Origin: Paracoccaceae bacterium
GTDB lineage: Bacteria; Pseudomonadota; Alphaproteobacteria; Rhodobacterales; Rhodobacteraceae
Reading direction: 5' to 3'
Length of the DNA: 38,608 nucleotides
Assembly (NCBI GenBank): GCA_027486345.1
Contig: JAIXPH010000008.1
Location: 1 to 38,608 of the forward strand
The position numbers were made by a program, and so were the translations under genes. How positions within the stretch are numbered: position 1 is the first letter of the stretch; every line of letters begins with the position of its first letter. Shown one piece after another: positions 13,545 to 31,421 of the stretch. Below the pieces are notes generated by a model. It did no database searches and was not told where the DNA came from. It saw nothing but the letters and a program-made list of their open reading frames with translations.

Positions 13545-13859
13545 TCAATCCGACAGGGTGAAGGACGTCATGGCGCAGAGGTCGGCGGACCCCGTCACCT
13601 CATTCCCGTTGTCGGCAACGAAGCGCATGTCGTATTCGCACACGCTCAGCCCGCCGGGGACGGTGATCAGCCCGCTTTCGCCGGGGGCCAACACGGTGCC
13701 CGCCATGATGTCATTGCCCCATTCATCCACCGACACCGGCGAGACGAACAGGTTGGCCAGCGTGATCGAACTTTCGTTGATCAGTTCGAACTGCAAGTCC
13801 TGCGCAAGGGCAGGCACCGCCGACAGCGAGAGGGCAAGGGCGGCAAAGGCAAGGCGCAT
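13545..13859 (-). CDS. Secreted small protein of unknown function
   Basis: This 104-residue protein has a clear signal peptide (RLAFAALALSLSAVPALA, cleaved before QDLQF) and a mature domain of about 85 residues rich in beta-type sequence: FELINESSITLANLFVSPV, then WGNDIMAGTVLAPGESGLITV. Two cysteines, in SVCEYD and ADLCAM, could form one disulfide. I do not recognise the family by function. Its pattern (NNSS/TLANLFVSP...LAPGES) resembles a periplasmic beta-sandwich domain. It stands alone downstream of the small-RNA region. Confidence 0.82.
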   Translation of the reverse strand: MRLAFAALALSLSAVPALAQDLQFELINESSITLANLFVSPVSVDEWGNDIMAGTVLAPGESGLITVPGGLSVCEYDMRFVADNGNEVTGSADLCAMTSFTLSD

Positions 13860-13960
13860 CGGATACTCCGCGTCGCAAAGTCGTCAGTCAAGCCGGGGGA
13901 CGACTCGGGCCCCGTTCAGCATAGATAAGATGCATTGCGGCCTTTCCAAAGGGGCCTGCA

Positions 13961-14060
13961 AAGAAAAAGCCCGACCGCGGGGGCGAGATGCCATCGGGGC
14001 CGGGCCTGCAGTCCAGTCAGGGAGGTAAGGCCATCCTGCAGGAAGCGGGCCACGGCGTCC
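13961..14060 (-). ncRNA. Candidate small RNA B with C-rich loop and terminator
   Basis: Read on the minus strand, this has a stem CCTGCAG (14042-14036) pairing with CTGCAGG (14011-14005) whose loop shows ACCTCCCTGACTGGA. It is followed by a terminator hairpin: GCCCGGCC (14005-13998) against GGTCGGGC (13976-13969), then TTTTTCTTTG. The two hairpins share a base, so they may be alternatives or abut. The C-rich loop is complementary to Shine-Dalgarno sequences. The core CCTCCCTG-N2-3-TGGACT is shared with candidate A. The 5' end is a guess, placed just after the FnrL box. Confidence 0.55.
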
Positions 14061-14074
14061 TTGATTCAAATCAA
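14061..14074. promoter_or_regulatory. Perfect FNR/FnrL binding site
   Basis: The sequence TTGAT-TCAA-ATCAA matches the FNR/FnrL consensus TTGAT-N4-ATCAA at all ten defined positions. It lies between the terminator of RNA candidate A and the stem of RNA candidate B. A -10-like GATATT on the minus strand (14078-14073) touches it, which would fit repression of B under low oxygen. Activation at -41.5 would put the start near 14026, inside B. The nearest protein start downstream is 13859. Confidence 0.65.
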
Positions 14075-14089
14075 TATCTGCCGCGCATC

Positions 14090-14160
14090 AAAAAAAGGCC
14101 GGGCATGAAGCCCGGCCAAGTCCAACAGGGAGGATGCCGCGTCATAACCCCGACGCGACA
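14090..14160 (-). ncRNA. Candidate small RNA A with C-rich linker and terminator
   Basis: On the minus strand: a hairpin GCGTC/GACGC (14156-14152 and 14143-14139), a single-stranded linker GGCATCCTCCCTGTTGGACTT, then a perfect 8-bp terminator GGCCGGGC-TTCAT-GCCCGGCC (14117-14097) followed by seven T. The order hairpin, C-rich linker, terminator is that of a trans-acting small RNA that can pair with ribosome sites. It could instead be the 3' end of the cenR transcript, processed from it, since cenR ends about 175 bases upstream. Confidence 0.55.
14097..14117 (-). terminator. Strong intrinsic terminator of RNA A
   Basis: Perfect 8-bp GC stem GGCCGGGC/GCCCGGCC with a five-base loop, directly followed on the minus strand by seven T residues (14096-14090). 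This is the most canonical intrinsic terminator in the window. Confidence 0.85.
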
Positions 14161-14289
14161 AGGGGAACTTGGGAAACGGGTGGCCACATGTCGTCAATCT
14201 GGCACAGAGAGGTGGATAACTGGTGAATCCGCCAACAATATGACCTTGGGTTGTGTAACGACCGCTGGCGAGCCTTTGTTTAATGGATT

Positions 14290-14334: not shown

Positions 14335-15021
14335 TCAGGCGACCAGACGGTAACCACCACTTTCGGTGACCAACAACCGTGCGTTGGACGGATCGGGCTC
14401 GATCTTCTGGCGCAGCCGGTAGATGTGGGTTTCCAGCGTATGCGTCGTCACTCCGGCGTTATACCCCCACACCTCGTGGAGGAGGATGTCACGCGCCACA
14501 ACCCCTTGTTGCGCGCGATACAGGAACTTCAGGATGTTCGTCTCTTTTTCCGTCAGGCGGATCTTCTTGTCCTTTTCATCCACCAGCATCTTCTGCGCGG
14601 GCTTGAAGGTGTAGGGGCCAAGCTGGAACACCGCGTCTTCGGATTGTTCATGCTGGCGCAACTGGGCGCGGATACGGGCCAGCAGGACCGGGAACTTGAA
14701 GGGCTTGGTGACATAGTCATTCGCCCCGGCATCAAGGCCAAGGATGGTGTCCGCATCCGAATCATGCCCTGTCAGCATCAGCACCGGGCATTTCACACCC
14801 TGCTTGCGCATCCGGCGGCACAGCTCGCGCCCGTCGGTGTCGGGCAGGCCGACGTCCAGAATGACCAGATCGTAATGGCCCAGCTTGGCCTTCTCCATCC
14901 CCTCGGCCCCGGTGCGGGCTTCGAAGACGTCGAAATCCTCGGTCATCACCAACTGCTCGCTCAACGCTTCGCGCAGGTCATCGTCATCATCGACAAGCAG
15001 GATTTTCCGTAGCGTGGCCAT
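14335..15021 (-). CDS. cenR: OmpR-family response regulator, CenR-like
   Basis: This 228-residue regulator has a receiver domain (about 5-120) and an OmpR-type winged helix (about 130-228). In the receiver, acidic residues DDDDD lie at 11-15, the phosphorylated Asp is Asp56 in LVILDVGLP, and the switch residues are in LMLTGHD and YVTKPF. The DNA-binding part shows LTEKETNILKFLYRAQQGVVARDILLHEVWGY. The opening TLRKILLVDDDDDLREALSEQL resembles CenR, an essential cell-envelope regulator of alphaproteobacteria; that assignment is from memory of the family and not certain. No sensor kinase lies next to it. The ATG at 15021 starts the receiver; the extension to 15168 is unlike the family. Confidence 0.88.
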   Translation of the reverse strand: MATLRKILLVDDDDDLREALSEQLVMTEDFDVFEARTGAEGMEKAKLGHYDLVILDVGLPDTDGRELCRRMRKQGVKCPVLMLTGHDSDADTILGLDAGANDYVTKPFKFPVLLARIRAQLRQHEQSEDAVFQLGPYTFKPAQKMLVDEKDKKIRLTEKETNILKFLYRAQQGVVARDILLHEVWGYNAGVTTHTLETHIYRLRQKIEPDPSNARLLVTESGGYRLVA

Positions 15022-16876: not shown

Positions 16877-18763
16877 ATGCCCCGCACGCCGTCCACCGCG
16901 GATGACGACATCTTTGATTTGCGCTTGAACCGCAGCGCCCCTGACCTGTGGCCGATGCTGGACGCGCTTTATGGTCAGCGCAACGACTATGACGCCTTCA
17001 AGGCTGCCTTGCTGAAATCCCTGCGCAAGGCATGGAAAGACCGCGCACCAGACCTGAAACGGCTGGACCTGATCCGCGATCTGGAACCCGACTGGTTCCA
17101 ACGCGCCGATATGGCGGGTTATGTCTTCTACATCGACCGCTTCGCGGGCACTCTGCCCAAGGTTCTGGAAAAACTGGATTATCTGGACGATTTGGGCGTC
17201 AACTACGTCCACTTCATGCCCTGCCTGAAGCCCCGTCCCGGTGACAGCGACGGCGGCTATTCGGTGATGGACTACCGCGCCATCAACCCTGCTTACGGCA
17301 AGATGGCGGATTTTGAGGCGGTCACGGCCGAACTGCGCCAGCGCGGGATTTCGGTCTGCATCGATCTGGTGCTGAACCACACCGCCAAGGAACACGCCTG
17401 GGCGAAAAAGGCCGCCAAGGGCGATCCGAAGTATCAGGATTACTACCTGATGTTCGACACGCCCGATCTTCCAAAGCGCTATGAAGAAACGCTGGTTGAG
17501 GTTTTCCCCGACAACGCCCCCGGTAACTTCACCCACTACCCCGATTTCGGCAAATGGGTCTGGACCACTTTCAACGAACACCAGTGGGACCTGAACTGGG
17601 CCAATCCGCAGGTATTCCTTGAGATCGTCGAGATCATGCTCTTCCTCGCCAACCGGGGCGTGGATGTGCTGCGACTGGACGCCGTGGCCTTCATGTGGAA
17701 GCGGATGGGCACGCGCTGCCAGTCCGAACCCGAAGTGCATATGATCCTGCAAGCCCTGCGCGCCTGTTCGCGCATCGCTGCCCCCGCCGTGCTGCATCTG
17801 GAAGAGGCGATTGTCGCCCCGGCGGAAATGCTGCCCTATCTGGGGCGCGGACGGCATGACGGCAAAGAGGGGAACCTCGCCTATCACAACAGCCTGATGG
17901 TGCAGTTCTGGTCCTCGCTCGCCACCCGTGACACGCGGTTGATGACGCATGTGATGGCGACGCATTTCCCGGACCGCCTGACCAATGCGACCTATGCCAC
18001 CTATATCCGCTGTCATGACGATATCGGCTGGGCCGTGACGGATGAGGATGCCGGGGCGCTGAACCTGTCCGGTCCCGCGCATCGGGCGTTCCTGTCGGAT
18101 TTCTACGACGGCACCTTTCCCGGCAGTTTCGCACGCGGCACGCTGTTTCAGGAAAACCCCGCCACCGGGGACAAGCGTATCTCGGGCAGCTTCGCCAGCC
18201 TTGCCGGTCTGGAGAAAGCCTTGGCCGAGGGCGATGCCACAGGGCGCGAGCAGGCCTTGCAGCGCATCCTGATGGGCCATGCGCTGATCGCGGCCTTTGG
18301 CGGGATTCCCCTGATCTACATGGGCGATGAACTCGCGCTCTTGAACGACTACGGCTACCGCGATGTGCCCGAACACGCCCATGACAGCCGTTGGGTGCAT
18401 CGCCCGCGCATGGATTGGGAGGCCGCCGCCAGCCGCCACACAGGCGACACTGACGCCAGCCGCATCTTTACCGGCGTGCAGCATATCCTTGCCCGCCGCC
18501 GCGCCACCCCGGCGCTGCATGCGGCGCATGCGACGCAGATCCTGCACTGCGATACGCCCGGCATCTTTGCCTTCCGCCGTGCCGCGCCGACAGGGGCCTT
18601 GGTCTGCCTGTTCAACTTCACCGAAAGCTGGCAGCACATCCCCGAAGGCTGGCTGCGCGCCCAAGGGGCCACGCGCCTGCATGACGAGTTGTCGGATGCC
18701 GCCGTGCAGGTGCATCACGGCAACATCGCCCTGCCGCCGCATGCACGGGTCTGGATCAGCTGA
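16877..18763 (+). CDS. Amylosucrase (GH13_4)
   Basis: This 628-residue glycoside hydrolase family 13 enzyme makes alpha-1,4-glucan and fructose from sucrose. The N-terminal helical domain (about 1-75) and barrel follow Neisseria amylosucrase. Catalytic residues are visible: nucleophile Asp268 in VDVLRLDAVAF, acid/base Glu310 in LHLEEAIVAP and transition-state Asp381 in RCHDDIGW. The conserved LVLNHTAKEH and FGGIPLIYMGDE segments are also present. There is no signal peptide, so it should act in the cytoplasm. No sucrose transporter, fructokinase or regulator lies nearby, so sucrose may be made internally or imported by a distant system. GGGAGGAG precedes the ATG. Trehalose synthase-type GH13 is the main alternative, less likely given HDDIGW and LEEAIV. 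Confidence 0.9.
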   Translation: MPRTPSTADDDIFDLRLNRSAPDLWPMLDALYGQRNDYDAFKAALLKSLRKAWKDRAPDLKRLDLIRDLEPDWFQRADMAGYVFYIDRFAGTLPKVLEKLDYLDDLGVNYVHFMPCLKPRPGDSDGGYSVMDYRAINPAYGKMADFEAVTAELRQRGISVCIDLVLNHTAKEHAWAKKAAKGDPKYQDYYLMFDTPDLPKRYEETLVEVFPDNAPGNFTHYPDFGKWVWTTFNEHQWDLNWANPQVFLEIVEIMLFLANRGVDVLRLDAVAFMWKRMGTRCQSEPEVHMILQALRACSRIAAPAVLHLEEAIVAPAEMLPYLGRGRHDGKEGNLAYHNSLMVQFWSSLATRDTRLMTHVMATHFPDRLTNATYATYIRCHDDIGWAVTDEDAGALNLSGPAHRAFLSDFYDGTFPGSFARGTLFQENPATGDKRISGSFASLAGLEKALAEGDATGREQALQRILMGHALIAAFGGIPLIYMGDELALLNDYGYRDVPEHAHDSRWVHRPRMDWEAAASRHTGDTDASRIFTGVQHILARRRATPALHAAHATQILHCDTPGIFAFRRAAPTGALVCLFNFTESWQHIPEGWLRAQGATRLHDELSDAAVQVHHGNIALPPHARVWIS

Positions 18764-31195: not shown

Positions 31196-31421
31196 GGGGC
31201 AACCTGTGTCAGGGAGGCCGCCTGAATATCGGGACGACAGGGCGCTGTCCAACGCTTGCAATGGAACCCCGGCATCGCAGGCTGGGTGGGGGCTTTCGCC
31301 AACGACGCCGGGGTGCAGCCAATTGCGAGCTACCCCTCCTGTATCGGCTGGGGGCCAGGCAGATTTAGGGGCGGATTCCGGTCTTTCTGCGTCACATCAG
31401 GGAAATTCGAAACAATCCGCC

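Follow-up and report, generated by a model that had tools for sequence, protein, structure and literature searches.

Two C-rich units behind cenR

The stretch of DNA analyzed here (the window, 38,608 nucleotides from a Paracoccaceae bacterium) raises the question of what two short C-rich units, each ending in a terminator, are doing one behind the other downstream of a response regulator gene, and how their transcripts come into being. A preliminary description had taken them for two tandem, related small-RNA candidates on the minus strand with a link to cenR, and the sequence, a terminator scan and the predicted folds all agree with that layout. Read along the minus strand, the order is cenR, unit A, a binding site (box) of the FNR type and then unit B. 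Unit A is the known small RNA SorX. What is new is unit B with its FNR box, and the more interesting result is the recurrence across the family of a predicted FNR promoter on SorX itself. The box is the strongest feature of the locus and had gone unmentioned in the preliminary description. The reading that we favor, with a probability of roughly 0.7, is that SorX derives from the 3' untranslated region (3'UTR) of cenR, and that unit B is a SorX-like anti-Shine-Dalgarno RNA which FnrL would activate from a class II FNR promoter when oxygen is low.

Unit A and its parent gene

The cenR gene (positions 14338 to 15021, minus strand; start codon approximate) encodes an OmpR-type response regulator with Response_reg (104.8 bits) and Trans_reg_C (69.9 bits) domains, and is the parent gene of SorX. 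Its product is 92.98% identical to the CenR that adjoins SorX in a genome (G069) taken to be that of R. sphaeroides 2.4.1 from its SorX coordinate, 2598225 as compared to the published 2,598,224 (PMC6238624). The cenR gene of the window is the counterpart of ompR-1/RSP_0847 of that species. Unit A (14091 to 14165, minus strand, 75 nt) lies directly behind the response regulator gene on the same strand, which is the placement of a cenR/ompR-1 3'UTR product. It matches the SorX model RF02784 over its full length (model positions 1 to 73 of 73) with 80.9 bits against a cut-off of 46.6, and this is the sole Rfam match at gathering threshold within the window. The unit is built from a 5' hairpin, CCTCCCTGTTGGACTT, a perfect 8-bp GC stem (14117-14097) and seven T, and the terminator scan places the intrinsic terminator at 14097 to 14117 on the minus strand, with eight GC pairs, a loop of 5 and TTTTTTT. 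Relative to shuffled sequences, the fold of unit A has a z-score of -4.33. The perfect stem and the seven T had been described correctly, whereas two details needed correction: unit A reaches 14165 rather than ending at 14160, and the gap from CCTCCCTG to TGGACT, given as 2-3 nt, is 1 nt in unit A and 2 nt in unit B.

In R. sphaeroides, SorX, formerly called RSs2461 (PMC5036791), is a 75-nt RNA processed out of the 3'UTR of cenR/ompR-1 (RSP_0847) (PMC6238624, PMC8625941), and processing by RNase E, binding to Hfq and the target potA have been reported (PMC6238624, PMC9438474, PMC5036791). The picture in the literature is that of a photo-oxidative-stress RNA that is born by mRNA processing (including PMC6238624, PMC8625941, PMC9438474, PMC5036791). 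Unit A has the length of the published mature SorX, the same place and the same parent gene. Judged by its sequence and setting, it is an ordinary SorX, already known, and the proposal that unit A is a new candidate, along with the idea that the locus holds wholly new RNAs, had to be given up.

The next gene downstream on the minus strand (13545 to 13859) encodes a protein of 104 aa whose N-terminus (MRLAFAALALSLSAVPALAQ...) is signal-like and which has no match in Pfam. Genes similar to it are found behind SorX in many genomes of the genus; it is not counted as part of the element, since what follows unit B differs from genome to genome. Elsewhere in the window, positions 16877-18763 on the plus strand encode an alpha-amylase family protein with an amylosucrase-like C-terminus. 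The segment CCTCCCTG occurs three times in the window, always on the minus strand (31217, 14133 and 14025). Weak matches (26-28 bits) in other genomes of the genus give a hint of another SorX-like RNA 5-7 kb upstream, but for the window this was rejected, since behind the one remaining copy of the segment, at 31217, no terminator is visible by eye. A phage origin was also rejected, as phage records gave no match.

Unit B, a shorter and diverged SorX-like copy

Unit B (13963 to 14026, minus strand, about 64-68 nt) lies directly behind SorX and is like it in the seed, CCUCCCUG..GGACU, and in the terminator, but it differs in that it has no 5' hairpin, scores below the 46.6-bit cut-off and possesses an FNR box of its own. 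It consists of CCTCCCTGACTGGACT, a GC-rich stem with a long loop, and TTTTTCTTT. Sequence and alignment delimit the anti-Shine-Dalgarno seed ACCTCCCTGACTGGACT at 14010 to 14026 (minus strand), and the fold places the terminator, a GC stem with a long loop followed by the T-rich end named above, at 13958 to 14007 (minus strand), much as the preliminary description had it. In the 65-nt fold no hairpin precedes the seed, and the predicted start, A14026, falls at the seed itself. The fold is only slightly better than those of shuffled sequences (z -1.84, with 10 of 200 shuffles as good). At its cut-off no Rfam family matched unit B, and the SorX model gave no match to it up to E=10, so that by the Rfam definition unit B is not a SorX.

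The kinship of the two units was established by comparison within the genus. A covariance model (R1) based on 10 of the tandem units in the genus, and on neither the window genome nor its sister (G006), detects unit B with 32.2 bits in the window (E=3.9e-8) and 35 bits in the whole genome (E=5.1e-7). In the genome ranking, unit B comes after a SorY-like RNA (52.5 bits) and SorX (50.5 bits), and the next match has 23.2 bits. All 12 tandem units of the genus can be aligned over seed and terminator; a single substitution and a 1-nt indel are the only departures from an invariant core. The seed hardly varies and is better conserved than the spacer. The terminator stem is kept in 12 of 12 relatives and shows little covariation, with a two-sided change in one of its 10 predicted pairs. 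From the R1 matches and the genus alignment, unit B is therefore a tandem, 5'-shortened SorX-like paralogue. The SorY-like RNA at the head of the ranking (L002; G000:C46:170944-170998, plus strand, with CATACCTCCCTGTTGGACTTGGGCCGAGC...) brings the seed group in the window genome to three members; it has 42.8 bits with the SorX model and gave no SorY match at gathering threshold.

Several known systems resemble the two units in part. SorY (RSs1543, RF02651) has the same seed and terminator design, and the SorX of the window scores 42.6 bits with the SorY model, but SorY differs in its locus and its 5' part, and unit B reaches only 12.3 bits against the SorY cut-off of 111. SorY is reported to have its own promoter (PMC6238624). 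CcsR1-4 of R. sphaeroides likewise form a tandem array of homologous C-rich RNAs downstream of a protein gene (PMC8625941), but their parent gene is ccaF1 and that of the window units is cenR; since the parent gene here is a response regulator, membership in the CcsR family was rejected. The preliminary description had thought the units distinct from CcsR in context and core; the context is indeed different, but the core is common to SorX and SorY. FnrS of Escherichia coli, a small RNA started by FNR in the absence of oxygen, has an outline similar to the one proposed for unit B; according to the FnrL study in R. sphaeroides, RSs2461 has no sequence similarity to it (PMC4263372). MmgR/suhB of other alphaproteobacteria (RF00519; CCUCCCU..GACUU and then a terminator) gives 24.6 bits for unit A and 20.5 bits for unit B, where it is the best sub-threshold Rfam match, and both values are far below the cut-off of 41 bits. 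We take it that the genomic context of MmgR/suhB, the seed and targets of FnrS, and the loop motif of CcsR likewise differ from what is seen in the window.

The FNR box ahead of unit B

Between the SorX terminator and unit B there is an FNR/FnrL box, TTGATTTGAATCAA (14061 to 14074, minus strand), which is a perfect dyad and the only FNR dyad in the window with at least 9 of 10 matches. The center of this box is 41.5 nt ahead of A14026, the A of ACCUCCCUG, and from work on E. coli FNR we take this spacing to be the position of a class II activator. A putative -10 element, CAGGAT (14033 to 14038, minus strand), would occupy positions -12 to -7; it is weak, with 3 of 6 matches to consensus, and a sigma-70 promoter scan reported no promoter in the unit B region. 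The preliminary description had offered two origins for the units, independent genes or pieces processed from the cenR transcript. For unit A the second holds, as published for this 3'UTR product; unit B, situated behind the terminator of SorX and preceded by an FNR box in class II position, is probably a gene of its own.

The genome contains fnrL (NF045989, 470.7 bits, cut-off 300), and the motif TTGATN4RTCAA occurs at 18 places in its 4.08 Mb, as compared to none for a reversed-pattern control. Six of the 18 places precede fnrL/hemN, ccoN (two boxes), ccoG, ctaD (where the stretch is incomplete and below cut-off) and bchE, all of which are FnrL targets in Rhodobacter. The bchE box (G000:C39:101588-101672) is 18 nt from a weak R1 match on the opposite strand (18.8 bits, E 0.09), probably by chance.

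Tandem units and box spacing in related genomes

SorX is present in 18 of the 19 genomes of the genus that were searched. In nine of these 18, the SorX model detects another copy immediately behind SorX, below threshold at 32-43 bits, and inspection reveals a tandem second core in 12, the other six having no unit B. An FNR box accompanies five of the 12 tandem units, in each case exactly 49 nt before CCTCCC and across a divergent spacer, and is missing from seven. With seven of 12 tandem units lacking the box and six of 18 SorX genomes lacking unit B altogether, the FNR switch of unit B is not essential. In a tree of cenR (19 rows), the FNR-type, box-less and missing states of unit B are intermixed, with six changes and with 5 of 16 inner branches well supported. 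Four of the box-less units (L009, L011, L014 and L016) have in common an AT-rich stretch, similar to TTCGTTAAGGAATTTTATACGnnnCCGTGnTAAA and located 30-60 nt ahead of the second core, which is perhaps the site of a different regulator.

A pattern search for an FNR box followed by 24-54 nt and then the core segment was carried out on 394 genomes of the family, one per genus except for two of the window genus. It gave 17 matches, with none in the reversed control, and 13 of the 17 have a box-to-core distance of 49-53 when 38-68 was allowed (binomial 6e-8, a value that is too small because many rows are related). All but one of these 13 adjoin cenR, and none of the four matches at other distances (40, 43, 57 and 66) does so. 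The exception (L153, genome G195) has a SorX-like core followed by a terminator and, 50 nt ahead of that core, an FNR box; no cenR lies within 1.5 kb, making it an unlinked copy.

A wider set of 215 unique SorX loci was assembled from 141 family loci, 18 genus loci and 56 named loci, the last being the non-duplicates among 61 with core and T-run out of 80. Twenty-four of the 215 are tandem. A box with at least 9 of 10 matches precedes the second unit in 10 of the 24, always at -48 to -50 from the core, and permuted motifs gave 0-1. The remaining 14 tandem units have no such box, and these same loci have none on SorX either.

FNR boxes on SorX itself

At E<=1e-11, SorX was found in 282 of the 394 family genomes. 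The 141 family loci are the best-scoring among the matches listed for those 282 and not a random draw; G136, G046 (twice), G000, G018, G213, G197 and G302 were left out, three of which (G213, G197 and G302) carry FNR boxes, and L159 was dropped as having no exact core. In 48 of these best 141 loci, an FNR dyad with no more than one mismatch lies 20-130 nt before the core, as compared to 0-2 for each of 19 permuted half-sites. Measured from the 5' end of the SorX model, the center is at -41.5 in 17 of the 49 such sites and at -42.5 in 9. Common to these 26 loci are TTGACNNAGATCAAAG and, at the -10 position, a CTTTA-like element, where the bases T35-A38 after the box are kept in 17-24 of 26 loci (T36 in 20, T37 in 24, A38 in 21). 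From the placement of these boxes, an FNR promoter appears in many genera to give rise to SorX, with the same 5' end that processing produces in R. sphaeroides. One example is Ruegeria (Silicibacter) lacuscaerulensis ITI-1157, which has an FNR-type SorX with the box TTGATGTGGATCAA 78 nt before the core. In five loci (L139, L140, L141, L146 and L148) the FNR box and the cenR stop codon (TTGA...) overlap; some 12 nt separate the box from SorX downstream, and the box-to-core distance is 50-52. The transcript predicted from such a box would be SorX without its hairpin.

Over the full set, a box on SorX occurs in 64 of 215 unique loci (permuted motifs, 0-3), and the distribution is uneven: 0 of 24 tandem loci versus 64 of 191 loci without a tandem unit (Fisher 1.9e-4, or 0.0099 without the genus rows, both again optimistic given the relatedness of many rows). 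This pattern of exclusion fits a history in which FNR control moved from SorX to the copy and was then lost in some lineages. Across the family, SorX may often use the same FNR promoter, with tandem loci having the box on the copy or nowhere.

This fits published FnrL ChIP-seq in R. sphaeroides, in which a peak was found in the putative promoter of RSs2461 and the RNA was listed as a direct target (PMC4263372). Since RSs2461 is SorX, a link between FnrL and SorX in that species has already been proposed in print. Those authors were unable to measure the effect of FnrL on the RNA, which their microarray did not include, and in 2014 the peak was published with nothing further on it (PMC4263372). 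A search of the open-access literature found no paper on an FNR promoter of SorX, on its conservation or on a tandem copy. In the presumed R. sphaeroides genome, which has no unit B at this locus, the best FNR site is TTGCGTGAGATCAA, with only 8 of 10 matches and located over the cenR stop codon. A purine is found 41.5 nt from the center of this site, with TATAAA at -12 to -7. The start predicted in this way, 2598196, misses the published end of pre-SorX (2598182) by 14 nt, a discrepancy that points either to two distinct ends or to an error in the prediction. The conserved class II box, together with the box-bearing tandem copy, would give the FnrL ChIP peak a concrete promoter.

A broader proposal, to which we give even odds, sees SorX as fundamentally a low-oxygen RNA of the Rhodobacteraceae under FNR control, which can arise in either of two interchangeable ways, by cutting of the cenR message or from an FNR class II promoter. 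In the lineage of the window, SorX would have kept the cenR route and unit B the FNR route, and the seed of unit B would since have diverged toward other targets. If true, one anti-Shine-Dalgarno seed would be tied to both lack of oxygen and oxidative stress, and the locus would be a clear case of a small RNA that duplicated and split its regulation.

Alternative readings of unit B

Three other readings of unit B must be weighed against these results. Because at least two proteins besides FnrL that match most of the Crp/Fnr helix-turn-helix DNA-binding domain are encoded in the genome, these could also bind the box, and unit B might be a promoter-driven SorX copy whose box is read by a CrpK- or NnrR-type protein, the signal being NO or something else other than oxygen. 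CrpK and FnrL of R. sphaeroides are indeed reported to be alike in DNA binding, but the ChIP peak at RSs2461 was that of FnrL (PMC4263372), and in the window genome the same motif stands before fnrL/hemN, ccoN, ccoG and bchE; we consider this reading unlikely. A little less probable still is a role for unit B as a leader whose terminator attenuates, such that FnrL drives the gene for the 104-aa secreted-type protein and the hairpin does no more than tune read-through. This gene has the same orientation as unit B and lies 166 nt beyond the core, and similar small genes follow unit B in the window genome (G000) as well as in G005, G006, G003 and L052. However, an exonuclease III-like gene is found behind the FNR-type unit B of L047, L049 and L071, and in L138 another gene lies 480 nt away, so that a leader role becomes less likely as the downstream gene differs between loci. 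The stronger conservation of the seed relative to the spacer also argues against it, as do the FNR boxes fixed to SorX itself, which have no shared downstream gene.

Least probable, and in our judgment quite improbable, is the reading in which both units are pieces of one long cenR 3'UTR; unit B would then be another product of processing, or a spare terminator, and the presence of the FNR box would be incidental. SorX is made in this manner in R. sphaeroides (PMC6238624), and the majority of tandem units (14 of 24) do without a box of at least 9 of 10 matches. Nonetheless, a perfect SorX terminator separates the two units, and where the box occurs it is held at its fixed distance from the core in 10 of 10 cases while the spacer diverges.

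Proposed mechanism and predicted targets

According to the preferred reading, an FnrL-activated unit B next to a processed SorX, SorX would be cut out of the cenR 3'UTR as published for R. sphaeroides, and unit B would be a diverged tandem duplicate of the seed and terminator of SorX, in which the 5' hairpin was lost and a separate promoter acquired. At low oxygen, the oxygen-sensing FnrL would bind the box at -41.5 and an RNA of about 65 nt would start at A14026. The free C-rich 5' end of this RNA, possibly with the participation of Hfq, would then pair with ribosome sites of the AGGGAGG type and block translation.

The pattern CAGGGAGG-N3-10-ATG occurs 14 times in the genome versus 4 times in the reversed control, an excess that mainly reflects how ordinary such sites are as Shine-Dalgarno sequences. 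By duplex energy, the best predicted target of unit B is glgC, with a 12-nt match and -27.5 kcal/mol. The match is found in 2 of the 15 genus genomes with a readable start (the start was unreadable in 3 more), and the AGGGAGG site of glgC is also present where no unit B exists, so glgC is a weakly supported lead as a candidate target. Other genes with predicted sites for the C-rich segment include those for the rhamnose ABC transporter rhaS, a CO-dehydrogenase-like large subunit and pheS.
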